Positions 14,446 to 36,700 of a DNA stretch of 64,000 nucleotides are shown here, one piece after another; position 1 is the stretch's first letter; each line of letters starts with the position of its first letter. The stretch comes from Candidatus Nitrospira neomarina (lineage in GTDB: Bacteria; Nitrospirota; Nitrospiria; Nitrospirales; UBA8639): assembly GCF_032051675.1 (NCBI RefSeq), contig NZ_CP116968.1, positions 2,790,001-2,854,000 on the forward strand, given 5' to 3'. The translations under genes and the position numbers were made by a program. Below the pieces are notes generated by a model. The model had not been told where the DNA came from. It worked only from the letters and a program-made list of their open reading frames with translations, and ran no database searches.

Positions 14446-14486
14446 TGATTGGGCCAATGAATATAAACCCTTTGTACAAGGATGAC

Positions 14487-15179
14487 ATGATGTACCCTCA
14501 ATATTCTCCAGGAGGTTCCCGCAGACTCTTTCCTTACCTGACATGGTTAACCATGCTCTTGAGTCTGAGCACATTTGGTTGTCAGAGTGTCTATTATGAT
14601 GCGATGGAGAGAATCGGCTACCATAAACGCGACCTGATGGTCAGTGATGTGGAAAAAGCTCGTGACGCTCAAGAGGACGCCAAAGAACAATTCAAGTCGG
14701 CGCTTGACCGCTTCACCAAAACCCTTAATATCAAGGGCGGTGAGTTACAGGAGAAATACGAGGTCCTGAATGCGGAATACGAACGGAGCGAAGCCAAAGC
14801 CCAGGCAGTTCGAGACCGCATCGCGTCGGTGGAGGATGTCTCGGAAGCTTTATTTGATGAATGGGAGGCTGAACTCAAAGAATATTCCAGCGCCGCCTTG
14901 CGCAAAAACAGCCAAAAGCAACTCACACAAACACGCACCCAATATGCTCAATTGATAAAAGCCATGAAACGTGCCGAATCGAAAATGGATCCGGTATTGG
15001 CAAAATTCAAAGACCAAGTCCTCTTTCTAAAACACAACCTGAATGCAGAAACGATCGCGTCATTAAAGAGTGAATTGGTCTCGGTGGAAGGCAATATCGC
15101 CGCCCTCATTAAGGAATTGAACGCCTCCATTAAGGAAGCCGATTCATTTATCGCCTCAATGGAAAAAACAAGCCCATAA
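14487..15179 (+). CDS. DUF2959-family lipoprotein
   Basis: The frame starts at an ATG at 14445 that overlaps the previous stop, but the ATG at 14487, after AAGGATGAC, gives a cleaner lipoprotein signal and is preferred (about 230 residues). The lipobox is STFGC. The mature part starts with YYDAMERIGYHKRDLMVSDV and continues as long charged helices (KARDAQEDAKEQFKSALDRF), which is the DUF2959 pattern. The protein is likely a membrane-anchored periplasmic coiled coil. The family function is unknown. Confidence 0.82.
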   Translation: MMYPQYSPGGSRRLFPYLTWLTMLLSLSTFGCQSVYYDAMERIGYHKRDLMVSDVEKARDAQEDAKEQFKSALDRFTKTLNIKGGELQEKYEVLNAEYERSEAKAQAVRDRIASVEDVSEALFDEWEAELKEYSSAALRKNSQKQLTQTRTQYAQLIKAMKRAESKMDPVLAKFKDQVLFLKHNLNAETIASLKSELVSVEGNIAALIKELNASIKEADSFIASMEKTSP

Positions 15180-19886: not shown

Positions 19887-19906
19887 GTGATTATCCTCTT
19901 ATCTAG

Positions 19907-19992
19907 TGTCATTCTGAGCTGAAGGCGAAGCCTCTGACTAAGCCATGGCTCAGTTGAGCTGGACACAGATCCTTCGTCCGACTCAGGATGAC
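19907..19992. repeat. Intergenic repeat B, copy 1
   Basis: The ends TGTCATTCTGAGC and CAGGATGACA are inverted, a common bacterial intergenic palindrome. An inner 37-base stretch (19940-19976) is identical to 20079-20115 in copy 2. Confidence 0.85.
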
Positions 19993-20047
19993 AAAACGGA
20001 GGGCGGGATGAACGACCGAGTTACCTTCTGCCTCGTTCATTGTTTAT

Positions 20048-20132
20048 TGTCATGCTGAGCAGCGCGAAGCATCTCGCCAAGCCATGGCTCAGTTGAGCTG
20101 GACACAGATCCTTCGCTTTACCCAGGATGACA
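20048..20132. repeat. Intergenic repeat B, copy 2
   Basis: A direct repeat of copy 1, about 140 bases away, with the same inverted ends and a 37-base identical core. A short diverged relative appears at about 45615-45651 (CACAGATCCC then TCAGGATGACA). Each copy could fold as a hairpin between the AsmA-like gene and the next lipoprotein gene and might act as an mRNA stabiliser or attenuator. Confidence 0.85.
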
Positions 20133-20233
20133 TGAATCCGGTTCTAGATGACCATTTGGAGATTTTTCTTCAGCAGCTTTCCGGAATTTGATAAGATAAG
20201 GAAGACCCTACCCTCTTGAGGAGCCGATTAGTT

Positions 20234-20854
20234 ATGTCCTACCTCCGATTATCGTCTTACACCAATATGCACACGTTCTTTTCCCATCCTATGTCCTTGG
20301 TCATGATGACCCTCCTTCCGGCCCTCCTGACAGCGTGCGGCGGTCCTTTAGTCGGGGTGACCGTGGTTGATGAACGCACGGCCTTGGAAAACCAGGTGCT
20401 TGGCACGTATCAAGAACTCAATCAGCAAGTCATGCTGGTGGCGTCCGTTCGCTATATCGATCCGAAGGGAAAATTGAAACAGACCCAGGAACTTCCCCCG
20501 GGGAAAAAGGACGTCGTGCGTGCCCTCCAACGAGTGTCTTTCAACAAAGATGATCTCAATCGCTATAAATCATTAGGAATCATCGGAGAAAACAATGAAG
20601 GCGGTGTCACCCTCCTGGAGCCGGAAAAAGTCCAACCTGACGATCGAGCATTTGTTGAGAATTTGATTAAGGAGGAGAATGAAGATCGCCTCGCGATCAT
20701 GGGCCGGATTGTTGAAACCAACGAGACTCTGACACCTTCAGAATTACCACGGGTCCACAAAATGTTTGCCGCACTCAATCGGGATAAAGCACTCAAGGGA
20801 GAACGAATCCAATTGGACAATGGGACATGGACTCAAAAAGACGCCACACCCTAG
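20234..20854 (+). CDS. Lipoprotein, DUF1318-like
   Basis: The ATG at 20234 is preferred because GAGGAG lies about ten bases upstream. The next in-frame ATGs are 20267 and 20291. The signal ends in lipobox LTAC. The mature part has NQVLGTYQELNQQVMLVASV and, later, LGIIGENNEGGVTLLEP followed by VENLIKEENEDRLAIMGRIV. That GE...G...N.(D)R..I pattern resembles DUF1318/YdbL, small periplasmic proteins seen next to AsmA-type proteins such as YdbH. The location after an AsmA-like gene supports this. Its end overlaps the start of the CHAT gene by 28 bases, so the two are likely coupled. Confidence 0.65.
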   Translation: MSYLRLSSYTNMHTFFSHPMSLVMMTLLPALLTACGGPLVGVTVVDERTALENQVLGTYQELNQQVMLVASVRYIDPKGKLKQTQELPPGKKDVVRALQRVSFNKDDLNRYKSLGIIGENNEGGVTLLEPEKVQPDDRAFVENLIKEENEDRLAIMGRIVETNETLTPSELPRVHKMFAALNRDKALKGERIQLDNGTWTQKDATP

Positions 20855-23800
20855 CTCAAGACTCCATGTGGCGAGGTCATCTTCTTTCTCTCCCTCCGCA
20901 CGAGGCTCGAAAGAGCACATCAGGAAGAAGAGAGAGCCGATTCTTTCATTTTCACCGAGCCCTATCCGGCTTAATCGCCTTCACCGGCCTGATCGGATTC
21001 CTGTGCTCCTCCCTCCCCGCTCTCGCTACGACACCTGAACGCCTGACCACTCACCCGGCCCTGGATTATCAACCGTCTGTCTCCATGGATGGACAAACGC
21101 TTGCATTCGTTTCTACTCGTTCGGGAAATTCGGATATCTGGGTCCAAACTCTCAAGAGTGCCGCCCTCACACTTCCCCGACAAATGACCACTCACCCGGC
21201 CAGCGATCAGGAACCGGCCTTGAACCGGGATGGGACCCGACTTTTGTATGTGTCGCATAAGTCCGATCCCCGTGGCGATGTGTACCTCCTGGATCTGATC
21301 ACCCGTGAGGAACAACGACTGACGGATTTAACCAGCGGGGATGGGTCTCCTCAGTGGGATCAAGAAGAACAAGGATTTTTCTATCTCAAAAGTGATCCGC
21401 TTCACAACACCTCCGCCATCTACCGGAAAACTTTCTCAAACCAGTCGGAAGAATTGGTCGTGGCCCAGGCCACCAGCTTTTCTGTGAATGGTCAGGGACA
21501 GCTCCTGTATTCCACTGGTGCCCATTTGACCTTATTGAATCTTCAGGACAACAGCTCCACCTCCTTCGACCAGGACAGCCATGCTCTGGATCTCTGGCCT
21601 GCCTTGGACCACAACCCCTCTGACCTCACCACGACTCGTCACCTGGTGTTTACCCGCTATGACCGGGACACCAACGATGACGGGCTGGTTGATACCGATG
21701 ATGAATCGTCCATTTGGATGAGACTCTGGGGCCCACAGCAGGCTGAATTCCAAACAATCTATCGGATCACTCCCGCGCACCAATTTCATATTTACCCTGC
21801 CGTGTCCGGGGATTTTCTCTATTACTCCGACCTAAAAGCCGGCGATATTTTCCGGATGGACATCCCCGCGTTTCTCAGGGATTACGTCGACCTCGATCAC
21901 GCCAAATCGCTGGCCGCCTCCTATCAGGATCACGGGCAACTGGATCTCGCGCTCCTGGTTCTGGGAAACATTTCTCACAATCTGTTGGCACAACAACCTC
22001 CTGACGCACGAGCAGAATTTGACTTTTCCCTTGCCGAAGCACAGACACAGGAAGGAAATTTTCCTGCGGCCCGCGAATCGTTGGAGCCCTACACCCGCCA
22101 ACCGGGACGGACCGGCGCGTTGGCCCGGATCTTTACCATCGTCTTGCGGGTCCAGGAGCAGGCACAGGGCATCAGCTCTGCGGCAAGACGCCGGTTGGTC
22201 ACCACCGGCGTGTCCGATTTACTCACCATCGGGCAGGAGCACCGGGACATGGATGAGGTGTACGGTCAAGCCCTCATTGAAGCCGGACGGCTTTACCTCT
22301 TTGCGGACGATCCCCTGACCGCCTTGGAATACCTCGTCAAAGTCGAAGATCTGCACAACAAAGAGATTCGAGCCAAGGGTCTTTTCACCAGAGGGGAAGC
22401 CTATCGGATTCTGGGAGACGCTCCCAATGTGATCCGCGTGTTCGTGGATGTCATTCAATTATTTGGCGAGCGTTCCTCCTGGGGCAAACGTGCTATCCAA
22501 AAGGTCGTAACACTCTCCCAACAGGGTGAAACGGAACGTGAGCGCCTGACCGCCTTAAACAGGATCATCCCCCAATATCCTGACCTTCCCGTCCTGATCG
22601 CTACCGCCCGTTTAACCATTGCCGATCTCTATCACGAACAGGGAGAACAACTGTCCGCTCTGGAAACTCTGGATTTCGTCATCCCGGTTCCCGACCTTCC
22701 CCACGAACTCGTCATCCAGGCCTATCGAAAAAAGGCCGAAATCCTTTCAGAATCGGAACGGTACCAGGAAGCGGCGGATACCTATGCGGCCTTGAGTCAA
22801 TTTACCGGGGAAAATCAGACTGAGCTCGAGGGAACCAAAAATCTTCTCATTTTACAATTGGTGAAAAAAGCCCTGAAGGACCGGAAGATCGGGGAGACCC
22901 GCATCGCCGCCAAATCGCTGAAACAGCTCATCGAGCAATATCCCGAATCCGTGGAAGCCCATCGGGCGTATATTGAAACCAAAGTCATGCTCAAAGAGAC
23001 GATGGAGGTCCAAGCCTGGTATACCACCTTAGTTAAGACACATCCCGATCACGCGGTCTATCAGTATGGACAGGCCCTGGCATTGTCCTATGCCGAACCG
23101 CCCGACCTCCCGGTTGTGATCCGCCTCCTCCAACGAGCCATGAAAAAGGATCCCGCCCTGGGCTATGTCCACCAAACCCTGGGATGGGCCTACGAACAAA
23201 CCGAACGGTCCGGCAAGCAAGGTTACCTTGAGAAGGCCGAGCAGGAGTATCGAATCGCGTTGGAGCTCAACGATGCCGGTCGCTTTCCCGACGTAGAATC
23301 CCAACTGCTGTTGAATTTAGGAAACACCTATCTGGCGCTCTCGAATGCCCGCGAAGCCTATCGACACTACCGGCAGCGCGAGGAACAATTCACTCCGTCA
23401 GGCGAATCTATCACCGAAATGCTCTATCGCAAAAACTATGGGGAAGCCTGTTTTAAAGCCGGACGCACCGAGGAATCGTTGGCGCAATACCAGTTGGCCT
23501 TACGGAACGTCCCTCCCGAGCAGTCAAGCCTACAAGCCGAAATCCTGGAACGCATAGGATTGTCCCATCAGGACATCGGCCAATATGCCAAAGCCATTGA
23601 GGCGTTCTCCCGGGCCTTAGTCCTCAACCGTGAGTTAGGGCAGGAACACAATGTCACATTGCTCCAGCGAAATATCGGGGTCAACCTGTTTAACCTGAGC
23701 CGCGCCAGCGAAACGGGTGGACGCGAGGAACTCAAACAAGCGTTGGGCAGTTACTTTACCAGCCTGGAACACCTCACCACCGGCGGCGGTAAAACTCTTT

Positions 23801-26800
23801 CCAAGGGACCGGGCTTGTTCAATGTGAATGTGGCCCTCAATGAAGGGGGGTCTCAGGCGGCCAGCGGGTTCGATCGAATGGGCGAACAAAAGCTCATGTT
23901 CAGTTATATCGCCAGCACCTATGAGCAATTAGATGAACCTGATCCCGCTCGAGATTTTTATCGCAAAAAACTCGCGCTCCTCAATCAGGGAGCATCGGCT
24001 GCGCAGGATGCGGCAACTCTGACAGAAAAAGCCATTGTCCTGAATCGGCTGGGAGTGCTTTCCCACCAATTAGATGAACCTGAGCAGGCGATGGAGTCCT
24101 TTCGTCAATCCTTGAATTACACCCGGACGTTGAATATCCCGTTCGGGACCAGCGTCAATATTTATAACTTGTCGACATTGGCCGTCGAAAGCATCCTACA
24201 GGGCCACACCCCGGACCACAGCCTTGTGGAGGCCATCACCTCGGGCATTCAGGATCTTCAACAACGAAACTATGAAGACCGCAATCTGTTTTTCACCCTC
24301 ACCAACACCGCCATGCTCCTGTCCCTTCTTCCCGACCCATCGCCGGACCAGCGCCTCAAGCCGGCCGCTGCCGTCCAACGCATGCATGAGCAGTTCACAA
24401 CCAGGACGCTTCCGTGGTCGTATTACCAAAAGGCCGACTCGCTCCTGAACAAGCCGGCTCTCTTTTCAGATTCAGAACGACTTCCCGCTCAATTCCTGGT
24501 GAAGTTGAATCAGGCCGAACTGGCACGCACATCGGATCAACCTCAGGTCTATCAGAACATTCAGGACGACTTACTTAAACTGGTGGAAGACCGGCAATCG
24601 CCCAATAGCTGGTTGTGGTATCTATCTCAAGCCGAAGCAACCGCGGATCCCCTTAGGCACGAGGAGCTTCTCACCCAATCTGTTGAGGCCGTCCTTCGTT
24701 TCCCCGCGCAAACCGACCCTCCCACGGGTCAGACCAATACCTGGCCCGCATATGAACGTCTGATTCAGCTCTCGGTTGATCAATTGATTAAAGCAGGCCG
24801 GCCCGACGACGCCTTTACCGTGGCGGAGCAACTGAGCCTTCGACAAGTAACCAGCGCCGTCTATGAAGCACTGGGAGAAAAAATCTTCCTCAAAGGGTTG
24901 GGAGACTATGAACCGGAATTACACTCGCTACTCGGAGAACTCCGGCAGGCCAGAAATCACGGGAACGTCGCGGCCATTGAAGAACTGGCTCCTGCCCTTC
25001 AAGACACGCTCTATGCCCTGTTTGAAGAATATCCCTGGGCCACCGCCTCCTTCTGGGCGTATCCGCCGACCAGAGACCTCATATTTTTGGGAGTGGACGC
25101 GCAACACCCCTACCTGAAAATTCTCAAAGGCATGCAAGGCTATCATGGCTTTGTGCATGATGGGGACACGCTCCATTACAGCCCGCTGGTGGTCACCGAA
25201 AAAGGAATCACGGGGGATCAAGAATTTCACAAGCGGCTCAAACAATCCGCCTCCGCCTATGTGGCGATGCCGCAGGAACTGGAATCCACCCTTCCTTCCC
25301 TGACGCTCGATCGGAAACCGCTCACGTGGGTCAGCAACTTCTATGATTTCCTGAATGGCTATCATCAGCGCAGCCTCTTTTTTTCTCACATCACCACCTC
25401 AAGCACGTTTCTCCCTTCCACGCCTCCCAGTGCGGGGGAAATTCCATTTGTGCTCCAGCAATTTAGCGGGGTCGAGACGCACGATCATCCGCTGGCCAGC
25501 CATACCAATATTGCCGCGTTTCTAAAAAATCCTGAGACGTTCGCCTTTGAAGTGCAGGAAGCTCAAAATGTCCGGGAATTTGTCTCCGTGCTTGATTTTG
25601 CCGGCAGTCAACACCATTCGATCCTGCTCTTCGGCGGTGTTCCGTCCTCATCGCCTTCTCCATGGGTGCTGATCTCCTCGCTCCTGCGGGCGGGATTTCC
25701 TCATGTCATCGTGAGCCGGACACCGCTCGATTCCCCAACCGCCACCAGGTTTCTGAATCAATATCTTACGCATCTCAATACGCTTCCTCCCGATGAAGCC
25801 GTCATGGCCGCGTCAAAGGATCTGTGGGGATCGGACACGGGAAAATACCCCTTCCGCCACTACGGATTTGCCGGCATGGGTCCGGACGAACGCCAGGAAT
25901 ATGCCGCCTCCATCTATGACCAGGAAGTGGCGGAAGCCATTCACGCATTTGAGACCAAAGACTTTCCCGCTTCTTTACGGCATATCGAGCATGCACTCGC
26001 CCTTATCGAGCATGCAAAAAAACGACAGGATTTCAAAGAACTCACCACCCTGGCCGTCGAAACCGCCTTTGAAGTCAGCGATTATGAAAAGGGCCTATTC
26101 TTTCAACAGAAACTTCTGGATGCGCTCACGCCGGAGACTCCGGCCAACGAACGGGCTGAGGCGGAATATCGCCTGGGCATCCTGCATTCCCGTCTCGAAC
26201 ATTTTGACCTCGCCGTGCAACATCTCGAACAGGCCAACCAGATCTGGGAACAAGGCGAACAGCTTGATCGACTCGCGGAAGGCATGGCGACATTGGGAAT
26301 TGTCCGTGAAAATATGGGGGCCTATACGGAAGCCCTGGACCAATTCAACCAGTCGTTTTCCCTGTATCAGGAAATCGGGGAAATGGGGCACACGGCGTTT
26401 CAATACCGTCGAATCGGGCGTATTTATTACCTTCGATTGGGCCGGTATGAGAAAGCCCGTGAAAACTTTCTGGCCGCGCTCAAGCTCTATCAGGAACAAA
26501 GCGATCCCCAGGGAGAAGCCGAGGCGCTGTACGAAGTGGGATTGACCTATGAAAAAGTCGGCCTGTTCGACCAGGCCGCGGAACGCTACCACCAGGCCCT
26601 TGCCATTGCGAAAGAACTGGAGAACCCCAAGCTCCTCTCGACGGGCGATCTCTACCTCGCCAATGTGGCCTGGTTCCAAGGGAACTATCAAGCGGCCTTT
26701 CAACTTTTAACCCAGGCCGACAAAAAAGCCAAACAGGCCAATGACCCGCAATTACGCATTATGGTGAAAAATACCCGCGGGCTGATTTACTGGACACTGA

Positions 26801-28731
26801 ATGACACCGACAAAGGACTCGTCCATTTACATGATGCGGTCACGCTCAGCCGGTCTTCCAATATTCAAACCGAGTTAGCCTCTTCGCTGAACAATCTTGG
26901 CTTGATCTACCGGCAACGGGGCGACCATGCCACCGCACTGGACTATTTTCAACAGGCGAAAACGCTTGACGAGTCCCTAAAAAGCCAATGGGGATTGGGC
27001 TATGACCATCGGAACATCGGCATCTCCCTACTGGCTCTGGGACAGTTGGAAAAAGCCGAAGAGCATTTCATCAAGGCCGAACAGATCAGCGCCGAGATCA
27101 ACAATGTCATCAATTGGGTTAAGGCCCTGCTGGAACTGGGCAATGTCAATAAAGCGCTGCTGCGACCCGAACAGGCCCTGGGCTATTACGAGCGGGCGCA
27201 TGAGATCTCCCGGCGATACGGCATCAAGGAAGTGGAATGGCGGGCCGCAGCGGGCAAGGCGACCCTGTTGCGAAAGGAAGGAAAGCTGCCGGACGCCCTG
27301 GACTGGTTTACCAAAGGCGTCGAGGTGGTGGAAGGCATGCGGGCCGCTCTGAAAATTGATGAACTCCGCAATAGTTTCCAGACGAACAAACTGGATCTGT
27401 ACCGGGACATCATTACCCTGCTCATCACCATGAACCGGACCGATGACGCCTTTAATTTTTTAGAACGCTCCCGATCCCGAAGTTTTATCGACCTGTTGGG
27501 CAATCAAAAACTCGAATTCAAAAACCAGGGCGACCGGGAAACCTGGACCAAAATCAACAGGCTGGCTTCCACGGTGGATTCACTCAAATCGGAATTAGGA
27601 TCGTATGAGGAGCCTCCTGCCGACCTTCAGGATCGGTATCGCAATACGAAGGCTCTCTATGAAGAAGCCATCCTGGAGGTCAAACAGCAGAATCCGGCCC
27701 TCAGTAGTTTTGTATCCGTGGATCCGCTCAATCTGGAGGGCGTGCAACAGCTCCTGGAACCTCGAGTGGGACTGCTCACCTACTTTATGACAACAGACCA
27801 GCTCTACCTGTGGCTCATTACCAAAGAACGGACCATCTTTAAAACGGTGTCGGCGAAGGAAGAAGATCTCACGCGCCTGGTAACCCGCTATCGGCAACTC
27901 GTTCAGCATCTGGAACCCGTTGATGATGAATTACAGAAACTCTATGGATCTCTGATTCAACCGGTTGAAGCCAACATCACAAACCTGGAGTATTTGGGAA
28001 TTATTCCCGATGGACCGTTACACTTTCTCTCCTTTGCCGCACTCAAACACGGTCCGGCATATCTGGTGGATGAGATCCCGCTCTTTTACGCACCCTCGGC
28101 CAGTGTTTTTCAATTCACCTTTGCCAAACGGCAGGCCGTGAAAAATGACAAAGTCCTTGCGATCGGAAATCCGGATTTGGGAAATTTCAATTACGATCTT
28201 CCGCTGGCCGAATTAGAGGCCAAAAGCATCAAATGGAATTATCCCAATATGGATATTCTGACCGGAACGAAAGCCACGAAAGAATGGGTGGTGAAGAATA
28301 TCTCCCGATATGGCATCATCCATTTAGCGGCCCATGGGGAATTCGATGAGGGCAATCCGCTGTTGTCTTCACTCTGGCTGGCTTCAGAAAACCCCGAAAA
28401 CCGCCGACTGACCGTCAAGGAGATTTTCGGTTTGGAATTGAACGCGGATCTGGTGACGTTAAGCGCCTGCCAAACGGGTCTGGGCAAATTGGAGGCCGGA
28501 GAGCTCATCGGCCTGAACCGCGCATTTGTCTATGCCGGCACGCATGCCCTGGTGTCCGCCCTGTGGCGGGTGGATGATCTCTCCACCTCGGTGCTCATGA
28601 AACATTTTTACCGAAATTATGTGACGGCGAATAAAGCCAAAAGTTTGCGGCAAGCGCAACTCATCGTCAAAAAAGACTTCCCTCACCCGTCCTATTGGGC
28701 GGGGTTTAGTTTAATCGGAGACTATCAATAA
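20827..28731 (+). CDS. Giant exported propeller-TPR-CHAT protein with two CHAT-like domains
   Basis: A 2634-residue protein. A hydrophobic export signal lies at residues 45-67, ending in ALA. Residues ~70-345 are TolB/PD40-type propeller repeats (VSMDGQTLAFVSTRSGNSDI, LNRDGTRLLYVSHKSDPRGD). Many TPRs follow to ~1350. Residues ~1400-1690 look like a degenerate CHAT domain: LASHTN with His1559, then LLFGGV, where Gly1604 sits 45 residues on. More TPRs run to ~2200. The C-terminal domain is a full CHAT protease: LAAHGEFDEG with His2503 and TLSACQTGLG with Cys2548, also 45 residues apart, followed by GLNRAFVYAGTHALVSALW. CHAT proteases are caspase-like cysteine peptidases. Export is unusual for the family as I know it. 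It is clustered with lipoprotein, SH3 and M48 genes. The n-region before the signal is long, and the ATG at 20866 is an alternative start. Confidence 0.88.
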   Translation: MDSKRRHTLAQDSMWRGHLLSLPPHEARKSTSGRRESRFFHFHRALSGLIAFTGLIGFLCSSLPALATTPERLTTHPALDYQPSVSMDGQTLAFVSTRSGNSDIWVQTLKSAALTLPRQMTTHPASDQEPALNRDGTRLLYVSHKSDPRGDVYLLDLITREEQRLTDLTSGDGSPQWDQEEQGFFYLKSDPLHNTSAIYRKTFSNQSEELVVAQATSFSVNGQGQLLYSTGAHLTLLNLQDNSSTSFDQDSHALDLWPALDHNPSDLTTTRHLVFTRYDRDTNDDGLVDTDDESSIWMRLWGPQQAEFQTIYRITPAHQFHIYPAVSGDFLYYSDLKAGDIFRMDIPAFLRDYVDLDHAKSLAASYQDHGQLDLALLVLGNISHNLLAQQPPDARAEFDFSLAEAQTQEGNFPAARESLEPYTRQPGRTGALARIFTIVLRVQEQAQGISSAARRRLVTTGVSDLLTIGQEHRDMDEVYGQALIEAGRLYLFADDPLTALEYLVKVEDLHNKEIRAKGLFTRGEAYRILGDAPNVIRVFVDVIQLFGERSSWGKRAIQKVVTLSQQGETERERLTALNRIIPQYPDLPVLIATARLTIADLYHEQGEQLSALETLDFVIPVPDLPHELVIQAYRKKAEILSESERYQEAADTYAALSQFTGENQTELEGTKNLLILQLVKKALKDRKIGETRIAAKSLKQLIEQYPESVEAHRAYIETKVMLKETMEVQAWYTTLVKTHPDHAVYQYGQALALSYAEPPDLPVVIRLLQRAMKKDPALGYVHQTLGWAYEQTERSGKQGYLEKAEQEYRIALELNDAGRFPDVESQLLLNLGNTYLALSNAREAYRHYRQREEQFTPSGESITEMLYRKNYGEACFKAGRTEESLAQYQLALRNVPPEQSSLQAEILERIGLSHQDIGQYAKAIEAFSRALVLNRELGQEHNVTLLQRNIGVNLFNLSRASETGGREELKQALGSYFTSLEHLTTGGGKTLSKGPGLFNVNVALNEGGSQAASGFDRMGEQKLMFSYIASTYEQLDEPDPARDFYRKKLALLNQGASAAQDAATLTEKAIVLNRLGVLSHQLDEPEQAMESFRQSLNYTRTLNIPFGTSVNIYNLSTLAVESILQGHTPDHSLVEAITSGIQDLQQRNYEDRNLFFTLTNTAMLLSLLPDPSPDQRLKPAAAVQRMHEQFTTRTLPWSYYQKADSLLNKPALFSDSERLPAQFLVKLNQAELARTSDQPQVYQNIQDDLLKLVEDRQSPNSWLWYLSQAEATADPLRHEELLTQSVEAVLRFPAQTDPPTGQTNTWPAYERLIQLSVDQLIKAGRPDDAFTVAEQLSLRQVTSAVYEALGEKIFLKGLGDYEPELHSLLGELRQARNHGNVAAIEELAPALQDTLYALFEEYPWATASFWAYPPTRDLIFLGVDAQHPYLKILKGMQGYHGFVHDGDTLHYSPLVVTEKGITGDQEFHKRLKQSASAYVAMPQELESTLPSLTLDRKPLTWVSNFYDFLNGYHQRSLFFSHITTSSTFLPSTPPSAGEIPFVLQQFSGVETHDHPLASHTNIAAFLKNPETFAFEVQEAQNVREFVSVLDFAGSQHHSILLFGGVPSSSPSPWVLISSLLRAGFPHVIVSRTPLDSPTATRFLNQYLTHLNTLPPDEAVMAASKDLWGSDTGKYPFRHYGFAGMGPDERQEYAASIYDQEVAEAIHAFETKDFPASLRHIEHALALIEHAKKRQDFKELTTLAVETAFEVSDYEKGLFFQQKLLDALTPETPANERAEAEYRLGILHSRLEHFDLAVQHLEQANQIWEQGEQLDRLAEGMATLGIVRENMGAYTEALDQFNQSFSLYQEIGEMGHTAFQYRRIGRIYYLRLGRYEKARENFLAALKLYQEQSDPQGEAEALYEVGLTYEKVGLFDQAAERYHQALAIAKELENPKLLSTGDLYLANVAWFQGNYQAAFQLLTQADKKAKQANDPQLRIMVKNTRGLIYWTLNDTDKGLVHLHDAVTLSRSSNIQTELASSLNNLGLIYRQRGDHATALDYFQQAKTLDESLKSQWGLGYDHRNIGISLLALGQLEKAEEHFIKAEQISAEINNVINWVKALLELGNVNKALLRPEQALGYYERAHEISRRYGIKEVEWRAAAGKATLLRKEGKLPDALDWFTKGVEVVEGMRAALKIDELRNSFQTNKLDLYRDIITLLITMNRTDDAFNFLERSRSRSFIDLLGNQKLEFKNQGDRETWTKINRLASTVDSLKSELGSYEEPPADLQDRYRNTKALYEEAILEVKQQNPALSSFVSVDPLNLEGVQQLLEPRVGLLTYFMTTDQLYLWLITKERTIFKTVSAKEEDLTRLVTRYRQLVQHLEPVDDELQKLYGSLIQPVEANITNLEYLGIIPDGPLHFLSFAALKHGPAYLVDEIPLFYAPSASVFQFTFAKRQAVKNDKVLAIGNPDLGNFNYDLPLAELEAKSIKWNYPNMDILTGTKATKEWVVKNISRYGIIHLAAHGEFDEGNPLLSSLWLASENPENRRLTVKEIFGLELNADLVTLSACQTGLGKLEAGELIGLNRAFVYAGTHALVSALWRVDDLSTSVLMKHFYRNYVTANKAKSLRQAQLIVKKDFPHPSYWAGFSLIGDYQ

Positions 28732-28732
28732 T

Positions 28733-28853
28733 GGGTGTGTTGAAAAAGCCCGCCAGCGGCGTTCTCGCCCCTTTGTCATGCTCACGTACTCCCACGTACG
28801 TTCCGCGTGCCAAAGAGGCTGCGGCCTTGCTGGACGGCCTTTTTGAACACCCC
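28733..28853. repeat. Dispersed palindromic repeat A, copy 3 (inverted)
   Basis: Reverse-complement relative of the copies at 15332 and 15902, with inverted ends GGGTGTGTT and GAACACCCC. It sits two bases after the stop codon of the CHAT gene, where the hairpin would form at the end of its mRNA and could terminate or stabilise it. Confidence 0.85.
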
Positions 28854-28951
28854 TTCATTAGGTCCCTTGATATATTAATGATATCGCAATGATTAAAACT
28901 CGTGAGAATTTTGAATAATCACGTCCTAGTCTCAAGCTGAAAGGGGGCCTC

Positions 28952-29479
28952 ATGCCAGACCGTATCGCTCGAGTGATCGTCGGAATTGTCTTCCTCACGT
29001 TGGCTGCCTGGATATTACCCTCATCCAATTGGGCGGCCACACTTTATGCCAAGCAGGATGACGTCAAAGTTAATGCAGAGAAATCTCCGACCTCCGCGGT
29101 CATCGCCACCCTGGCGCTGGGAGATGCCGTCACCGTGCTAGCCGAGGAAGGGCGACTGGCCAAAGTCAAAACCGCCACAGGAAAAACCGGCTGGGTGTTT
29201 AAATTCCGGCTGGCAGAAGAGAAGCCTTCCACCGGTGGTGGCGGGCTTGGCCTCTCCGGACTCACGGGACGGAAAACCATTGCCGCGCGAGAGTCACGGG
29301 CAGGAGGTAGCATTCGAGGCCTCAAGGAATCCACCGAACAATATGCCAAAGCCAAAAATATCAAAAAGGAAGACCGTGATGCAGTGGATCGCATGGAGGC
29401 CTTTTCCATTGCCCCGGATGAATTGATGCAGTTTAAAAAAGCGGGAAACTTAGGAGAATTTTCGGGAGGTGTCCAATGA
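28952..29479 (+). CDS. Exported bacterial SH3-domain protein
   Basis: A 175-residue protein with a signal peptide (hydrophobic residues ~8-25). Residues ~30-90 (ATLYAKQDDVKVNAEKSPTS, VTVLAEEGRLAKVKTATGKT, GWVFKFRL) form a bacterial SH3 (SH3b) domain, which often binds peptidoglycan or other envelope partners. The C-terminal part is helical and charged. A good site (AAGGGGG) precedes the ATG. Its stop overlaps the ATG of the M48 gene by four bases, so the two are translationally coupled. Confidence 0.82.
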   Translation: MPDRIARVIVGIVFLTLAAWILPSSNWAATLYAKQDDVKVNAEKSPTSAVIATLALGDAVTVLAEEGRLAKVKTATGKTGWVFKFRLAEEKPSTGGGGLGLSGLTGRKTIAARESRAGGSIRGLKESTEQYAKAKNIKKEDRDAVDRMEAFSIAPDELMQFKKAGNLGEFSGGVQ

Positions 29480-30375
29480 ATACCGGAAAAATTTTGGCGG
29501 GTGTCAGCATTCTGAGTCTCCTCTTGTCCAGCATGGGATGCGGTGGATCACAATCCGGGCAATCGTCACAACAAACGGATCTCATTGGAGGTATCGGAGC
29601 GGCCCTTGGCATGAAACAACAGAAAATCGACCTTCTGAAAAAAGGCGTCGGTGTCGTTCAAGCGATGGAGCCTATCGGAGAAGAAGAGGAAATCACGTTG
29701 GGGGAAGCGGTCGCGGTGGAAGCCTTTAGCCGTTTCGGCGGGGAATATTCCAATCCAGCCTGGACACGCTATATCAATCTGGTGGGAAAGACGGTGGCGG
29801 AAGTCTCGGACCGGCCAACCCTGAACTACCATTTCGCCATTCTGAACAGTCAGGAACAGAATGCCTTTGCCGCTCCCGGTGGCTATATCTTCATCACCGT
29901 CGGGCTCTTGAAGACCTTGAAAAATGAAGCCGAATTAGCGGGCGTGTTGGCCCATGAGATTGCGCATGTCACCCAGAAACACATGCTGGACGCCATTCGC
30001 CGGGGAGCCCTGATGGGCAGTGTCTCGGAACTGTCACTCACCGCCATGAAACAGGATCCGGCGCTGTTCTCCAACGTCATCGACGAAATGACCGACCTCT
30101 TGTTCACCAAAGGTCTGGACAAGGACAAAGAATTTGAAGCCGATGTGGTAGGCGTAGAGTATGCCTATCGGGCAGGCTATAACCCGCAAGGACTGGAAGA
30201 TTATCTGCAGACATTGGCCAAAGAAGAAGGGCATGTGGAGTCCAAGTTTTTCACCACGCATCCTTCCACCACCCTCCGTATCTCCAAAATCGATACACTC
30301 TTAAAAGAGTATTCCGACATCAAAAATCTGCCGTTTCTCGCGGAGCGGTTTCACCAATATGTGAAGGCGGGATAG
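29476..30375 (+). CDS. M48-family metalloprotease lipoprotein
   Basis: A 299-residue protein with lipobox SSMGC. LAHEIAHVTQKHMLD carries the zinc motif His160-Glu161-x-x-His164, and KEFEADVVGVEYAYRAGYNP supplies the third ligand Glu221, the M48 pattern. It ends soon after FFTTHPSTTLRISKIDTL, so it has no TPR tail of the BepA kind. It is expected to cleave or quality-control envelope proteins in the periplasm. Its coupling to the SH3 gene and its position beside an exported CHAT protease make two different protease classes in one cluster. Confidence 0.92.
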   Translation: MNTGKILAGVSILSLLLSSMGCGGSQSGQSSQQTDLIGGIGAALGMKQQKIDLLKKGVGVVQAMEPIGEEEEITLGEAVAVEAFSRFGGEYSNPAWTRYINLVGKTVAEVSDRPTLNYHFAILNSQEQNAFAAPGGYIFITVGLLKTLKNEAELAGVLAHEIAHVTQKHMLDAIRRGALMGSVSELSLTAMKQDPALFSNVIDEMTDLLFTKGLDKDKEFEADVVGVEYAYRAGYNPQGLEDYLQTLAKEEGHVESKFFTTHPSTTLRISKIDTLLKEYSDIKNLPFLAERFHQYVKAG

Positions 30376-30455: not shown

Positions 30456-30578
30456 TCAACACTGAGTTGCGTAAAACCCTGAGAAGCCTATAAATTATTT
30501 CGTCAATTAGAGCCATTTTTCTGTCTGGGTTTTCAAAATTAACCACTCTGTATACTTGAAAGTTGGCTTTTGAAATTA

Positions 30579-31295
30579 ATGATTGATCGATACATCACAC
30601 TGAACCGGGCTGTTCGGGCAACCGCAAGACTTTCTCGGGAATTGCTTGAAGCAGAGAGATATGACGAAGGCAGCTACGCCGTCGGAGTCCTCATTTCATT
30701 AATATCACGCTGTTTGTCTGATCTTGAGCGTTTATGGCCCAAAGATCTTTCCGCAGAAGATATTAAACGCATCAACACTCTCTTAGGACAAGGAAAGCAA
30801 AGCGCTTACTATGACATTCTTGAGACACACATTCCAAACCTGGAGAATACAATTGATGACTATTTTCTAGTTCAGCCGTCCAGTGACCTTGCTTATGCAG
30901 TTCTGGATCTCCTACATCCTCGCGTTACAACCGCCGCATACGCTCACTTTCGTGGGGGTCGCTTCCGGGATGCAGTTCTAAATTCCATAGTTGTTGTCTT
31001 CGACATGTTGCGAGAACGGACAGGACTCGATGCCGATGGCGCAGAATTGGTAACAGAGACTTTTTCATTACAACGTCCGCGGTTAGTCTTTACTTCACTT
31101 GATACTGAATCGGGGCGAAATGAGCAAAAGGGTTTCATTCAAATTTTACAGGGTTACTATCTCGGAATTCGCAATCCGAAAGCCCATTCTCTGACAATCG
31201 AAACAGACCAGGTTTCGTCTGCACAGTACCTTGTCTTATCGAGCATTCTATGCAGAAAAATAGAAGAAGCAACCAAAATCGACACCGATCAATAA
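30579..31295 (+). CDS. Hypoth_Ymh/TIGR02391-family HEPN protein
   Basis: The ATG at 30579 is preferred over the TTG at 30570. The protein has 238 residues. The C-terminal ~110 residues have the TIGR02391 (Hypoth_Ymh) pattern: LLHPRVTTAAYAHFRGGRFR, then RDAVLNSIVVVFDMLRERTG and GYYLGIRNPKAHSL. RNPKAH fits the Rx4-6H motif of HEPN ribonucleases. The family is found in phage-defence and restriction islands. Its base composition is lower in G+C than the preceding cluster, consistent with an island boundary here. The N-terminal half is helical and not recognised. Confidence 0.78.
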   Translation: MIDRYITLNRAVRATARLSRELLEAERYDEGSYAVGVLISLISRCLSDLERLWPKDLSAEDIKRINTLLGQGKQSAYYDILETHIPNLENTIDDYFLVQPSSDLAYAVLDLLHPRVTTAAYAHFRGGRFRDAVLNSIVVVFDMLRERTGLDADGAELVTETFSLQRPRLVFTSLDTESGRNEQKGFIQILQGYYLGIRNPKAHSLTIETDQVSSAQYLVLSSILCRKIEEATKIDTDQ

Positions 31296-31408
31296 CCAAA
31301 GGTCCATCGAACAAAGCGCAGTACCTGCAAAAGGAATTTAGGGTACACAAATTTTAGCCAATGTGAGGTAAGAAACACTCCACTGCCCCATTTGACCCAC
31401 CATCTGGT

Positions 31409-31561
31409 GTGTCAGCCGGAACGAAAGCAAAATTCTCGCTTAACAAGGAACTTGAAACCATCGTCTGGACAAACGGGGCCGATTTCGCGCCTGAGTTCCT
31501 TTACCAGAAATTGTGCCCTACCTATTCCCTCAAGCCAACATCCAAAAGCAGCGTGGCTTAA
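31409..31561 (+). pseudogene. Remnant of a DUF2442 protein (toxin-antitoxin type)
   Basis: A frame from 31409 to a TAA at 31559-31561 reads FSLNKELETIVWTNGADFAP then EFLYQKL, which matches the C-terminal half of DUF2442, a small protein usually paired with a DUF4160 partner. There is no N-terminal half and no partner gene, so it appears to be a decayed fragment. Bases on both sides have no other recognised gene. Confidence 0.65.
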
Positions 31562-31585
31562 CGCTGCATAAACCACATCAAGTCC

Positions 31586-31725
31586 AAAAAAAACAGGGAG
31601 TCAAGTCTGTTGCTGAGGGTTTCGTGCGCTGGTATGCAAAAGCAGTCTGCAGACAAAGCCTTTAAAAACCAGATGCAACGGGTGGCAATTCATCAACAAC
31701 AGATCTGACCCCATACCCGCTTTCA
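31586..31725. repeat. Island repeat D, copy 1
   Basis: It starts with an A-run, then CAGGGAGTCAAGTCTGTTG and ends with GGTGGCAATTCATCAACAAC followed by AGATCTGACCCCATACCC. The same layout, diverged, occurs at 42764-42900, and its right end recurs at 43165-43216. No transposase is intact. These could be remnants of a mobile element or of REP-type sequences. Confidence 0.65.
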
Positions 31726-31940
31726 ACAATATGTGAAAGCGGGTTAACTTGCCGTCAGGAAGAAGTGTCTGGTAGGAAGGTTAAATTATTCATCACTCTG
31801 ATCGTCTATCCAGATAATACGAGAAGAGATCAGACCGTCAGGCGCTAGGACGTCGCATTGCTTGAGCGGCGTTGCTCAACCCTTTGCCGATCAGCAGCTG
31901 CACGAAGCTCCGTCCGTCTGCATCGGCCTGTTAAATAACT

Positions 31941-32654
31941 TCACAGCTCTACCACATAGAGCCGCACGTCAATTCTCTTCCCGCGCACAACTTGGACACC
32001 AGAGGTTTTGCGTTCGAACTGACGAGGATCTGGAAGATCCCTCACGGTGTCCAAAACCACAAACACGAGCGTCTCGCATGATGGATGCTCAGGGTAACAC
32101 TGGATATCCGTGTGGATCTGCTCAAGTATCTTCTTCCATTGCCCTGTCTTGCCAATCCATTTGAGTTCGATGAAGAGACGGGATGCCTTGCTAGCCAGAT
32201 CGACAATCTTGTGAGTCTGGACCAAAGATGGCGTAGGTTCCTCCTGGTTCAGGTCAAGCAAGCTCGCCCTCAGCATGACGTAGAGCAAATCACGCACATC
32301 GTCTTCTCTCGAGACGATCCAGGGATCGAACCCCTTCTCGCGTTTGCCGAAGGACCTAATCGCGGGAGTCAGGGCTGCTGCCCTCGCGATAGTAAACAGA
32401 GCCGATTCTCGCCCCAATAGTTCCAGAACCGTCTGACGTTCTGGTGATCCTCCGCACGATAGGGACTCCGAGTGCGGGCCGAGGAATGCCGCGAAGCAGT
32501 GATAAGGCGGCGGTTGGACAACGCCATCCACCGACTGCAATGAATAGGTGTCCGCATCTTGGGCGATATCTTGGGCGATATCTTCGTCGATTTCTGCGAC
32601 ATCACGCGCCCACTCGACTCCTTCAGCGCGGAAAAACAGTTCGTACGCTGCCAA
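31941..32654 (-). CDS. PD-(D/E)XK (DpnII/MboI-like) nuclease domain, probably the C-terminal part of the TIR-STAND protein
   Basis: About 237 residues read from a TTG, with no convincing ribosome-binding site. The C-terminal half has DPWIVSREDDVRDLLYVMLR, HKIVDLASKASRLFIELKWI and IHTDIQCYPEHPSCETLVFV. Asp in KIVD and ELK in FIELKWI fit the D...ExK catalytic core of restriction-type nucleases, most like the DpnII/MboI-like effector domain. The first ~30 residues (AAYELFFRAEGVEWARDVAE) would continue naturally from the upstream STAND gene, which ends in another frame 32 bases into this one. The two are best read as one gene split by a frameshift, or less likely as an overlapping pair. Confidence 0.7.
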   Translation of the reverse strand: MAAYELFFRAEGVEWARDVAEIDEDIAQDIAQDADTYSLQSVDGVVQPPPYHCFAAFLGPHSESLSCGGSPERQTVLELLGRESALFTIARAAALTPAIRSFGKREKGFDPWIVSREDDVRDLLYVMLRASLLDLNQEEPTPSLVQTHKIVDLASKASRLFIELKWIGKTGQWKKILEQIHTDIQCYPEHPSCETLVFVVLDTVRDLPDPRQFERKTSGVQVVRGKRIDVRLYVVEL

Positions 32655-33567
32655 AGTCGCTTAGCATGGATGGGGCATCGTCACGCGACATAGAGCTCAA
32701 GTTGATGCTCCTAAACCTGTCGACGAGCGGGACTGGTACTTGGCGTCGTGACGTGATAATTGCGCGACATCCGAGCCGCAACGCCTCCTGCAGCAGGACT
32801 TCCAAGTCGGCAGCTGGGGAGGCTTCATCATAGCCGTCCAAGAAAACCAATTTGCCCTCATGGGCGGCGTGTAGTTGCCAGCTCTTCAGTCTGCCAACGG
32901 CGTCTTCGAGCTTGACGACTTCTCGACCAGGCACATAAAGCACAGCTGCTTTCACCGGTTCGTCATACCCGAGGTAGCCAAGGGCGGTGATCCAAGTCTG
33001 TACCAGGCCACTCTTCCCATTTCCCCCGAGTCCCTGAATCCATGCGCCTCGGGCAGGCTCTGACCACCACTCGTCTAGGTGGCGAAGCTCGTCTTGCCGA
33101 CCCGACCAATTACTCGGTTGTCCGAGTCCGTTGCCTTCGATCGAGACGCTCGAGACATCCGCGTTTGCGGCAATGACTCTTCTTGGCGTCGATCGTACTG
33201 CAAGGAGTTCAGCAAGGCTCTCGCACGCAACAGTGTCTAGCGGAAATGAGTTGTCCCACGGTGATCCCACTTGACCTTCGCATGGCGGAGAGTAGACGCG
33301 AGCGAGCGTGTGAGAGCGGCCCTCTCTGCGAAAGCGGATCGCCGTCTTGACTTCTCTTGACACCCAGTGGGACCGACGACTGAGAGGCGTATCCACCATC
33401 AGGAAGGCATCGGATCGTTGCAGCGCTTCTCCCAGCTTCGCCACAAAGGCTTGACCCATGGGGATGTTGGATTCGTCCAGCCAGCACTCGACTCCCTTAC
33501 TTGCGAGGTCGCCAGAGAGAATCTTTGTCTCTGTGACATCAACTCTGGAATAGGAGATGAACAGCAT
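32623..33567 (-). CDS. TIR-domain STAND-type NTPase, likely truncated by a frameshift
   Basis: 314 residues. Residues 1-~85 are a TIR domain: LFISYSRVDVTETKILSGDL, GVECWLDESNIPMGQAF, and RRSHWVSREVKTAI, where Glu72 is at the position of the catalytic Glu of TIR NAD-cleaving enzymes. Residues ~150 on form a P-loop NTPase: WIQGLGGNGKSGLVQ (Walker A) and GKLVFLDGYDEASP (Walker B), followed by AIITSRRQVPVPLV as in NACHT/STAND proteins. The frame stops soon after LSSMSRDDAPSMLSDFG, where such proteins normally continue. The nuclease frame starts there. This is the layout of an anti-phage sensor-effector. It starts 29 bases after an attC-like site. Confidence 0.85.
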   Translation of the reverse strand: MLFISYSRVDVTETKILSGDLASKGVECWLDESNIPMGQAFVAKLGEALQRSDAFLMVDTPLSRRSHWVSREVKTAIRFRREGRSHTLARVYSPPCEGQVGSPWDNSFPLDTVACESLAELLAVRSTPRRVIAANADVSSVSIEGNGLGQPSNWSGRQDELRHLDEWWSEPARGAWIQGLGGNGKSGLVQTWITALGYLGYDEPVKAAVLYVPGREVVKLEDAVGRLKSWQLHAAHEGKLVFLDGYDEASPAADLEVLLQEALRLGCRAIITSRRQVPVPLVDRFRSINLSSMSRDDAPSMLSDFGSVRTVFPR

Positions 33568-33774: not shown

Positions 33775-36700
33775 TCACACCACCAAGACCCGTTCGACGA
33801 TCTTCTTGGCGACTGTTCTTGCAAGGCCTTTGGCGTCGAGTCTGGCGTTGAACGAAACCGGCCCGAATGGCTGGCCAGCGTACTTCCCGCGCACGTGCAA
33901 CGTCGCAATTCCCCGGCCTTGGCAGGCGTCCATGTTGCCGCTCACGTCGATTGTGAGGTTCTGGTCGAAGAGTGTCTTGGCACCACCCTGCAAGTACTTG
34001 ATGCCCTGAGAGACCGGCGACGGCAGGAGCGCTAAGGCCCCGCTGATGGCCCATCGGAACCCGGCCCCGATCGTCTCGTACGTGGTCAAGTTGATCTTCA
34101 GTGCACCGTAGACGGCGATGTAGGCCTCCCATGTCGTGATGAAGTGTTCTTTGTTCCACGGCAATTTCGTGGCGTCGCGCCTCAGGCCATGGAGCGCCCA
34201 CCTGAGTTTGGCGTCCACGGCCCTGTGAAGGGCCTGCTCCGCCTGGATCGCGGCTTCGGCGAGCACGAACGGCGAAAAGCTCTCATCGAAGTGACCCGTG
34301 ATGGTCATTTTTCCGAAGGTGGACGGACTGAGTGTCCCGGCGGTTATCTGCAGTGCTAGGGTGGCGCTATCGCAAGGCAGCGTCAGGCTGGTCTTGAGCT
34401 CGAAGGTCTCGTGGGTGATGGTGAATGCGTCCTCGGTACGGGCGCCGAACAGCTTTACAACCGCGCTGCCCTTGGCGCCGAAACCCTCGGCCGTGATCCA
34501 GGCGCTCAAGTCGCCCTTCAGTTCGAGAACCTTTTCGAGACCCGGGAAAAGATTCGCCTCGCCGGCAAAATATATCCTCTCTGTCGTTAGCTCGGCGTCG
34601 GCCTCGAGGATCACGTGATCGCCGACGCTTAGCTTGGCCTGGCCCGTGAATCCGCTCGCAGGAAACGCGCCGCCGGTCTCGGCGGCATCGTCGTCATTGA
34701 AGAAGACGGCCGCGATGCCCTGCAGCTCGTAGGTGAGCTGGTTCACGAACGTCGTGCGCAGTCTCACGCCCGTGGCGAACCCGCTACGCTTGGCGGTCAT
34801 CATCCCGAACTCACCCTCAAACTCGAACAGCTTCTTAACACCGCTCTTACCGCGCAGCATGAGGACGAGGCCGTCAGTGTTCGGCAGTGGGGGAGGCACA
34901 AGCGCGATAAGCGCGTTCCGCTCCTCCTGGCTCAGCCCTACGAGACCGGAGCCCGGCGCCGTGCTGGGTTTGCCCCACTTCAACCCCGTAGCGAATTCTT
35001 CGCGCGTCGTCGCCGCCCAGGCCATGCTAATGAACTCGACAGGACCGAATACCAAGTCGATCTTGCCGCAGCGGTGCTCGAGCGGGATGCCCCGGAGGAA
35101 ATCCGAGAGCGAGAAGAACTTGATGCCGTTGAGGACGTTTGCGAATGCCTCATAGAGATCGACTTCCAGCAGCGGTGCTCCCGCGGCGCCGAATGACTTG
35201 CCGCCCAGCAGCGCGGGGAGCCGGAGGTACGTCTTCCCGATCTTCGGCTCCAGTTCGAGGGCACCCTTCGTCGGTAGCTCGCCCTCGGGGCGGTCCTTGT
35301 ACTTGGCGAAGTTATAGAGGTCGCGGAGCGTCGTGAGGACCTGCTCGAGGCCATTGGCGAGCGGGTCGAACGTGACGCTCGCCTCCATCGCCAGACCGGA
35401 GGGCCTGAAGCTGTGGATCCCGAGCTCCTTGAAGGAAACCGGGACGGGGATCGGGACGACGGCTTCGTAGATGATGAAACCGACGAGGTTGTTGATCACG
35501 ATCGTCTCACGGGCTTCCTTCGCATTGGGTAGCAGCTTCTGCATCGCATCGCTCTCAGCGGCCGCAACCGCCCCGCCGATCGCCGCCACATCGAAGACGT
35601 CAATGTCGGCGTCGAGCTTCAACATGAAGAGCGCGCCGCCGAAGACCGGGCCAAAGCTTAGGCTGTAGATCGTGAGACCCATGAGATTCGGAACGCTTGG
35701 GAATAGCACCCGGAGTGGCTTCGGGTCTTTCTCGCCGTGGCGTTCCCGATCGGCCCCCGTCGAAAGTTTGACCGTGAGCGAGCCACTGGCGCTCGCCGTG
35801 GCATGAAAGTGGAACTCGTGAGGCAAGCCGGCCTCGAGATACTCGATGAACCGGGCAGGAAGACCCGAGGCCGCCTTGCCTAAGGCCTCGATCGACTTCC
35901 TCAGTACGGGGTTGAGCTTGAAGTTTTGGTCGGCGTGCTTGCCGATCTTCTCAATGGTTTCGATCAGCTTGTCGGTGAAGAGCTTGCCTTTGCTGAACAG
36001 CGGTGGCCGATCGTGCAGCAGCAAGATCTTGTCGGGAAGATGCTTCCCGATGCCACCGAGGTGGTTTCCGAGCAGCTCTTTGAACGGCGTGAGCGGAAGG
36101 CCGATCGGGTCGTCATCGTCCTGCTTGAAGCCGCCCCCGACCTCGAAGGCGCCGTTTGCGCCGGCCTTGAAGACCGGAACATCGATATTGATCGTGCCCG
36201 CCGGCCCGAGCTGGCACGGCAGGTAGCGCCCGAGCTCACTATCCTCCTTGATTTCAAGCTTCGCAAAAGGCAACTTGGTCAGGGCAAAGGATGCCCCCGG
36301 AGAACCGCCAATGAGCCCGAAGGCCAGCTCGGCGGCGATGGCGGCATCGGTCGCGAAGATCGTGTGCTTCTCGAGGCCGTCCTTGGTTTTGCCGAATAGC
36401 ACCTGGTTGATGTTGTCGGGCAGCTGAATCGTCGGCTCTAGCGAGAACGTGATATCGCCGCCAAAGTTGACCGTCACCGTGGGTTTGTAGGCGTTCACCT
36501 TCAGGTCGTGGAGTTGCGCCCCGCTCAGTGGGAGCGCCGGCAGGTCGATCGGAACGTCTTCGATGACTTTGCTAACGGAGAACTTCACCGACGCCGCGTC
36601 GACGCTGATTGTGCCTTCAATGGTCCCACTCGGCAAAACCTGCTGAACACGCTCAGGGAACGATTCGAAGCTCACTTGCGTCCCGCCCGCCAAGGTCCAG

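Follow-up and report, generated by a model that had tools for sequence, protein, structure and literature searches.

Do the AsmA-like, DUF1318, CHAT, SH3 and M48 genes that follow one another in the genome of Candidatus (Ca.) Nitrospira neomarina form a single system? The stretch analysed here, called the window, is 64,000 nucleotides long and covers positions 2,790,001-2,854,000 of a 4.8 Mb genome held in one contig. The closest named relatives of this genome are Nitrospirales records, e.g. NPIRA03, NPIRA06 and UBA8639. An earlier note on the window proposed that the last four genes form an envelope cluster to which the AsmA-like gene may also belong, and that the cluster would be a system only if a survey of gene neighbourhoods found it conserved as a unit. 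Our comparisons come close to showing that the five genes (hereafter the cassette) are a conserved unit of two blocks, AsmA-DUF1318-CHAT and SH3-M48. The genes stay together in distant bacteria and have moved as a set, which makes a single undescribed system of the cell envelope very probable.

The neighbours of CHAT were tabulated for 30 genomes with sequence of a CHAT orthologue. The counts omit four of them (G001, G004, G009 and G059), in which CHAT is fragmentary and lacks flanking sequence, and each count takes in only those genomes where the neighbour concerned is visible. The DUF1318 gene lies directly upstream of CHAT in 24/24 genomes. SH3 and then M48 directly follow CHAT in 21/23 genomes (exceptions, G028 and G211), and AsmA directly precedes DUF1318 in 19/22 (exceptions, Nitrotoga M5, G020 and G211). 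All five genes are present on a single contig in 12 genomes. The cluster is thus conserved as a unit, the AsmA-like gene belongs to it, and true orthologues of the CHAT protein do occur beside SH3 and M48 genes. The cassette is found in several Nitrospirales genera and in two Ca. Nitrotoga. Nitrospira-type genomes of another family (L097-L099) encode proteins with 29-64% identity to those of the window, in genes that overlap or nearly touch. All five genes are under purifying selection, with ratios of nonsynonymous to synonymous changes (pN/pS) of 0.07-0.18 against G018 and 0.18-0.33 against Nitrotoga BS. An order kept in relatives at 29-64% identity, together with this selection, argues that the arrangement is not due to chance.

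Among 395 Nitrospirota genomes, a strong DUF1318 match (E ≤ 1e-80) was found in 12, and strong matches to SH3 and M48 accompany it in every one of these 12, with SH3 of G417 matched in two pieces. In G211 the matches to DUF1318, SH3 and M48 are all weaker; one of its contigs carries DUF1318 and CHAT, and a second carries SH3 and M48. The AsmA orthologue was detected in 20/23 genomes examined (in G211 by a weak match); when 198 genomes were drawn from the phylum, 3 matched and all were cassette carriers. Outside the cassette, Nitrospirota also contain DUF1318 lipoproteins with an AsmA-type gene upstream, and no CHAT gene was seen with them. Six of the 13 frames upstream of these DUF1318 genes (10 are partial) match AsmA, DUF748 or YdbH, most of them below cut-off. 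Ordinary CHAT-TPR proteins elsewhere in these genomes (L060, L061) lack the cassette neighbours, and one such protein is also encoded in the genome of the window (782-residue open frame, G000:C1:3106896-3109061).

A search of 398 genomes of Nitrotoga's phylum with a DUF1318 profile (E ≤ 1e-12) gave 13 genomes: Nitrotoga BS, 11 with strong matches, and G530. In all 11 strong genomes AsmA is directly upstream of DUF1318, the AsmA of G583 being split between two frames. CHAT directly follows DUF1318 in 6 (one contig includes no more of it than the start), and in 9/11 the distance is at most 10 kb. Where a cassette-type M48 was present in Pseudomonadota, SH3 was directly before it in 6/6 and AsmA directly after it in 4. 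The blocks thus stand either way round, as AsmA-DUF1318-CHAT-SH3-M48 or as SH3-M48-AsmA-DUF1318-CHAT; the latter arrangement is divided between two contigs in G603. A tree of CHAT proteins made by a quick method puts Pseudomonadota (86) apart from Nitrospirota with Nitrotoga (94), with long branches for G211, G563 and G551. These genomes also bear on the idea that two useful, unrelated modules were brought together by operon drift and lateral transfer. SH3-M48 and AsmA-DUF1318 each do occur alone, and G563 retains the core without this M48. However, the two blocks are linked in both orders in two phyla, and the orthologous M48 (E ≤ 1e-110) was found in 6/12 Pseudomonadota carriers searched vs 0/14 non-carriers (best, 1.3e-52). 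We therefore consider a chance union of modules improbable.

Two of the Pseudomonadota loci are arranged differently. In G583 (L165), about 5.3 kb separates DUF1318 from CHAT. In G530 (L170, 1600-10440), a distant DUF1318 gene lies between two CHAT-type genes with frames of 787 and 1967 residues, and the expected dyad motifs are missing near the end of the second.

The two Ca. Nitrotoga cassettes encode proteins about 61-82% identical to those of the window, in organisms that we take to be Betaproteobacteria. Their CHAT proteins nest inside the genus of the window (g1), with support of 98/99 and 100/100. The contig carrying the Nitrotoga M5 cassette encodes a ribosomal protein S2 with 86% identity to its counterpart in a Nitrotoga-family genome and 47% identity to the one in the window genome. 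Among 60 Nitrotoga-family genomes, the cassette-type DUF1318 was present in the query genome only, and one other genome has a distant DUF1318. It is established, or nearly so, that the cassette moved as a set between nitrite oxidisers by lateral transfer. A plasmid origin was not supported: a plasmid collection gave only generic CHAT proteins, about 30% identical and mostly cyanobacterial.

Coordinates of the genes and of the features within the CHAT protein are collected in the table. As the earlier note had it, the lipoprotein, CHAT, SH3 and M48 genes share the plus strand, with real overlaps of 28 bases between lipoprotein and CHAT (20827-20854) and 4 bases between SH3 and M48 (29476-29479), and each of its labels DUF1318, CHAT, SH3 and M48 lies above the curated Pfam cut-off. 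Its statement that every product carries an export signal or lipobox held, by eye, for the lipoprotein, CHAT and SH3 proteins, but the lipobox of M48 (SMGC) is weak. For the lipoprotein, the gene caller placed the start at a TTG at 20216, and an in-frame ATG lies at 20234.

Table. Genes of the cassette and features of the CHAT protein (window positions)
Feature	Position	Strand	Basis or remark
AsmA-superfamily-like gene, 1191 residues	16311..19886	+	precedes the four genes of the earlier note
DUF1318 (YdbL) lipoprotein gene	20234..20854	+	Pfam PF07027, lipobox
CHAT gene, predicted exported 2634-residue propeller-TPR-pseudoCHAT-TPR-CHAT protein	20827..28731	+	Pfam, profiles, models
TolB-like PD40 beta-propeller, residues 60-385	21004..21981	+	profile A6 vs PDB TolB 1.5e-20
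EF-hand-like loop DTNDDGLVDTDDE in propeller, residues 281-293	21667..21705	+	conserved positions
Pseudo-CHAT domain, separase fold, residues 1310-1684	24754..25878	+	AlphaFold2 (AF2) predicted local distance difference test (pLDDT) 90.4, fold match, Pfam
CHAT protease domain, dyad intact, residues 2368-2632	27928..28722	+	Pfam CHAT
Putative catalytic His2503	28333..28335	+	invariant 15/15; H...HG motif in 8/8 Pseudomonadota
Putative catalytic Cys2548 (SACQTG)	28468..28470	+	invariant 15/15; present in 8/8 Pseudomonadota
SH3_3 gene, 175 residues, predicted exported, conserved C-terminal element	28952..29479	+	Pfam SH3_3
M48 zinc metallopeptidase gene, 299 residues, predicted exported	29476..30375	+	Pfam Peptidase_M48

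Upstream of the cassette, a DUF2959 gene (14445-15179) is syntenic within the genus (L049-L051, L053, L064) and was not found beside the cassettes of Nitrotoga or of other genera. Between AsmA and DUF1318, two copies of a 69-base repeat lie at 19925-20132; they are 87% identical, have a CTCAGGATGACA-type end and look like a dispersed intergenic repeat. Just downstream, 30570-33567 encodes a TIGR02391/Ymh protein (plus strand), a DpnII-MboI-like nuclease (31941-32654, minus strand) and a TIR-NACHT fragment (32623-33567, minus strand). Beyond these, an open reading frame of 1691 residues at 33775-38850 (minus strand) has no Pfam match and about 61% G+C vs about 52% around it; this stretch is possibly recent foreign DNA.

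The giant CHAT protein begins with a signal-peptide-like N-terminus (by eye), followed by the TolB-like propeller, TPRs, the pseudo-CHAT domain, more TPRs and the C-terminal CHAT domain. Against the full TolB equivalog it scored 52.1 bits (cut-off 343.15) over residues 72-212 only, and it is the propeller alone that matches. TolB itself docks on the lipoprotein Pal. In the EF-hand-like loop of the propeller, which by its motif we take to be a calcium loop, D222, T223, N224, D226 and D233 (numbering of the aligned region) are invariant in 15/15 orthologues. The whole protein scored 221.9 bits with Pfam CHAT (PF12770; cut-off 24). Conservation measured by majority identity is highest over residues 2451-2634 (0.85-0.94), and the pseudo-domain is among the lowest (0.52-0.64). 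The pseudo-CHAT region matches Pfam CHAT in 9/15 orthologues (best, 8.4e-5) and has no Cys at the catalytic site in 15/15 orthologues and 8/8 Pseudomonadota (23/23). Since a direct profile comparison of this region with the C-terminal CHAT domain gave no match (probability 6%), the pseudo-CHAT assignment rests on the Pfam matches and the fold match. These residues establish, or nearly so, that the C-terminal CHAT domain is a predicted protease with an intact His/Cys dyad and that its tandem domain is predicted to be dead. In separase, too, a pseudo-protease adjoins the active domain.

The model of the pseudo-CHAT domain is similar to separase (VIA Z 18.5), the Craspase TPR-CHAT protein (17.3) and DdvA (16.7). 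DdvA is titled a transmembrane anti-sigma factor, which brings up envelope stress signalling, with CHAT sensing periplasmic damage and cutting a regulator. We regard this explanation as rather improbable, for the separase and Craspase matches equal or exceed that of DdvA and no sigma or anti-sigma gene lies between the cassette parts. The Craspase match, in turn, raises the possibility that CHAT is a caspase-like effector of phage defence or cell death: CHAT-TPR proteins are effectors in Craspase (from structure titles), and the window has defence-like genes just downstream. However, those genes fall outside the conserved unit, the signal peptides and lipoboxes (by eye) put the products outside the cytoplasm, and PADLOC returned generic TPR models for CHAT only and nothing for the other four proteins. 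A role in defence is thus very improbable.

The earlier note proposed that the two protease types might make up a cascade or a device for quality control in the periplasm; the AsmA-DUF1318 pair is the more informative partner and points to lipid or lipoprotein traffic between membranes. The DUF1318 protein scored 38.1 bits with Pfam PF07027 (cut-off 27), the domain being C-terminal, and the Cys of its lipobox LTAC (by eye) is invariant in 11/11 rows. E. coli YdbL belongs to the same family, and alignment of the window lipoprotein with it by hhalign (probability 72.7, E 3.2e-5) covered nearly the whole of mature YdbL. The ydbL gene is encoded beside ydbH and ynbE, and YdbH, the partner of YdbL, moves phospholipid between membranes. 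The ydbH-ynbE-ydbL locus suppresses the defects of tamB yhdP mutants (PMC8593681).

Among 15 orthologues of the AsmA-like protein, Pfam matches were obtained to DUF748 in 10, AsmA in 9 and YhdP in 5 (best, 3.7e-12). The AsmA-like matches are significant by E-value, yet below the curated cut-offs. The model (pLDDT 79.4, predicted template modelling score (pTM) 0.53) has a helix at residues 19-47 and then a long beta-rich part; the protein is presumed to be periplasmic beyond this N-terminal membrane helix. Its N-terminus also matches NCBIfam T2SS_GspN_Lepto (42.8 bits), and Pfam T2SSN was matched by 1/15 orthologues. GspN, which is AsmA-like, is required for lipoprotein transport to the surface in Acinetobacter (PMC12802150). 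The AsmA-like protein could similarly serve a surface-display or secretion route, taking lipoproteins to the surface, with CHAT maturing or releasing the cargo. This route is unlikely, since the GspN match is below cut-off (50) and no secretin, usher, Omp85 or type II secretion system gene was seen between the cassette parts, the scan having covered part of the flanking frames. Because GspN moves lipoproteins, both lipid and lipoprotein are kept as candidate cargo.

The SH3 protein, with a signal-peptide-like N-terminus (by eye), scored 29.3 bits with SH3_3 (PF08239; cut-off 27). Its C-terminal tail (FKKAGNLGEFSGG, about 29374-29476) is similar to the start of the YdbL domain (YKSLGIIGENNEGG, about 20519-20605). 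Comparison of the two by hhalign gave P of 0.0015, and 3.8e-4 with deeper sets; one control pair in the same run gave 1.8e-4 and aligned near hydrophobic N-termini. These alignments are no more than suggestive of a module common to the SH3 tail and the YdbL domain. The M48 protein scored 110.7 bits with Peptidase_M48 (cut-off 20.3); its HExxH residues H160, E161 and H164 are invariant in 7/7, and its nearest match in the PDB is 3c37 (2.4e-38), with BepA next. The lipobox of M48 (29476-29550) is limited to close relatives of the window; the lipobox Cys is missing from other orthologues, whose N-terminus is signal-peptide-like.

We tentatively favour, from domain content and gene order, a trans-envelope bridge for lipid or lipoprotein that may be under proteolytic control by the CHAT enzyme, helped by SH3-M48. 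The AsmA-like protein would be anchored in the inner membrane, with its beta-groove across the periplasm. Its partner would be the DUF1318 lipoprotein, which probably sits in the outer membrane (the sorting rules of lipoproteins being the background to this placement) and would take the roles of YdbL and possibly YnbE. The two would carry the lipid or lipoprotein outward. The CHAT protein would dock through its TolB-like propeller and TPR arms; the dead pseudo-CHAT domain may restrain CHAT until a signal allows it to cut a bridge partner or client. SH3, perhaps on peptidoglycan, and M48 could attach to or clean up the bridge site. The whole would be a bridge across the envelope that includes a caspase-family checkpoint of its own. 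A narrower version is possible and doubtful: an undescribed kind of envelope machine in which CHAT cleavage sets the opening, length or partner of an AsmA-type lipid conduit, with the tandem pseudo-protease as a separase-like gate, and which bacteria exchange as a cassette.

Several observations weigh against the proposed bridge or against the unity of the five genes. In the window, the AsmA-like protein scored 36.7 bits with DUF748 (cut-off 50) and 24 with AsmA (cut-off 29.8), both below cut-off. A fold search with its model gave weak matches to apolipoprotein B, LptD, porins and TamB, which we read as giving no clear answer and as compatible with other families. As a candidate YdbH it was rejected, with an hhalign probability of 0.1% and no PF11739 match in the window protein or the 15 orthologues. 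No YnbE-like open reading frame was found in the gap between AsmA and DUF1318 (19887-20215), which holds repeat DNA only, and in L097 these two genes overlap by 4 bases without a YnbE gene between them. The AsmA gene lies apart from the cassette, elsewhere in the genome, in Nitrotoga M5 and in G020. DUF1318-CHAT of G211 is without adjacent AsmA, SH3 or M48, the CHAT match of G028 ends near residue 1602 with SH3-M48 absent, and G027, which has M48 and part of SH3 at the edge of a contig, gave no DUF1318 or AsmA match. No orthologous M48 was seen in 5/11 strong Pseudomonadota carriers, some of whose genomes are fragmented. Finally, SH3 and M48 also adjoin each other, in a more distant form and without this DUF1318, in 33/395 Nitrospirota genomes, which makes the pair an older module.

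According to PMC8593681 and PMC10900882, the phospholipid route to the outer membrane and its control are still being worked out, and AsmA-like proteins are the leading carriers. If the proposed bridge is correct, regulated proteolysis enters phospholipid transport, with named candidates supplied by a conserved, transferable operon. It would also put the CHAT/separase fold to work in the periplasm; the solved structures matched here are for the most part CRISPR proteases, separases or one anti-sigma factor. Among 5.39 million open-access PMC papers, we found no description of such a system in connection with CHAT proteins that are periplasmic, come from Nitrospira, or are linked to TolB or WD40, or to AsmA, TamB, YdbH or DUF1318; most subscription papers were outside this search, so the result is weak evidence of novelty.

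The cassette shares parts with several known systems. Like Csx29/Craspase and separase, its CHAT protein has the CHAT/separase fold, TPRs and the His/Cys dyad. Unlike them, it is predicted to be exported, carries a TolB-like propeller, joins a Cys-less pseudo-CHAT domain and an intact CHAT domain in one chain of 2634 residues, and lies in no CRISPR or cohesin context that we could see. DdvA (PDB 8rot, 8rw5) also has a CHAT-type fold in a membrane-associated protein, but no anti-sigma part or sigma gene was seen in the cassette. BepA and LoiP share an exported M48 domain with HExxH; the cassette M48 is far below their equivalog cut-offs (101.3 bits vs 570 and 54 vs 365, respectively) and has an SH3 gene as partner. 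The YdbH-YnbE-YdbL system likewise pairs the gene of a long AsmA-superfamily-like protein with a neighbouring DUF1318 (YdbL) gene. The cassette differs from it in that its AsmA-like protein is not recognised as YdbH and a YnbE gene is lacking, and in that its YdbL domain is borne by a lipoprotein and CHAT, SH3 and M48 are added.

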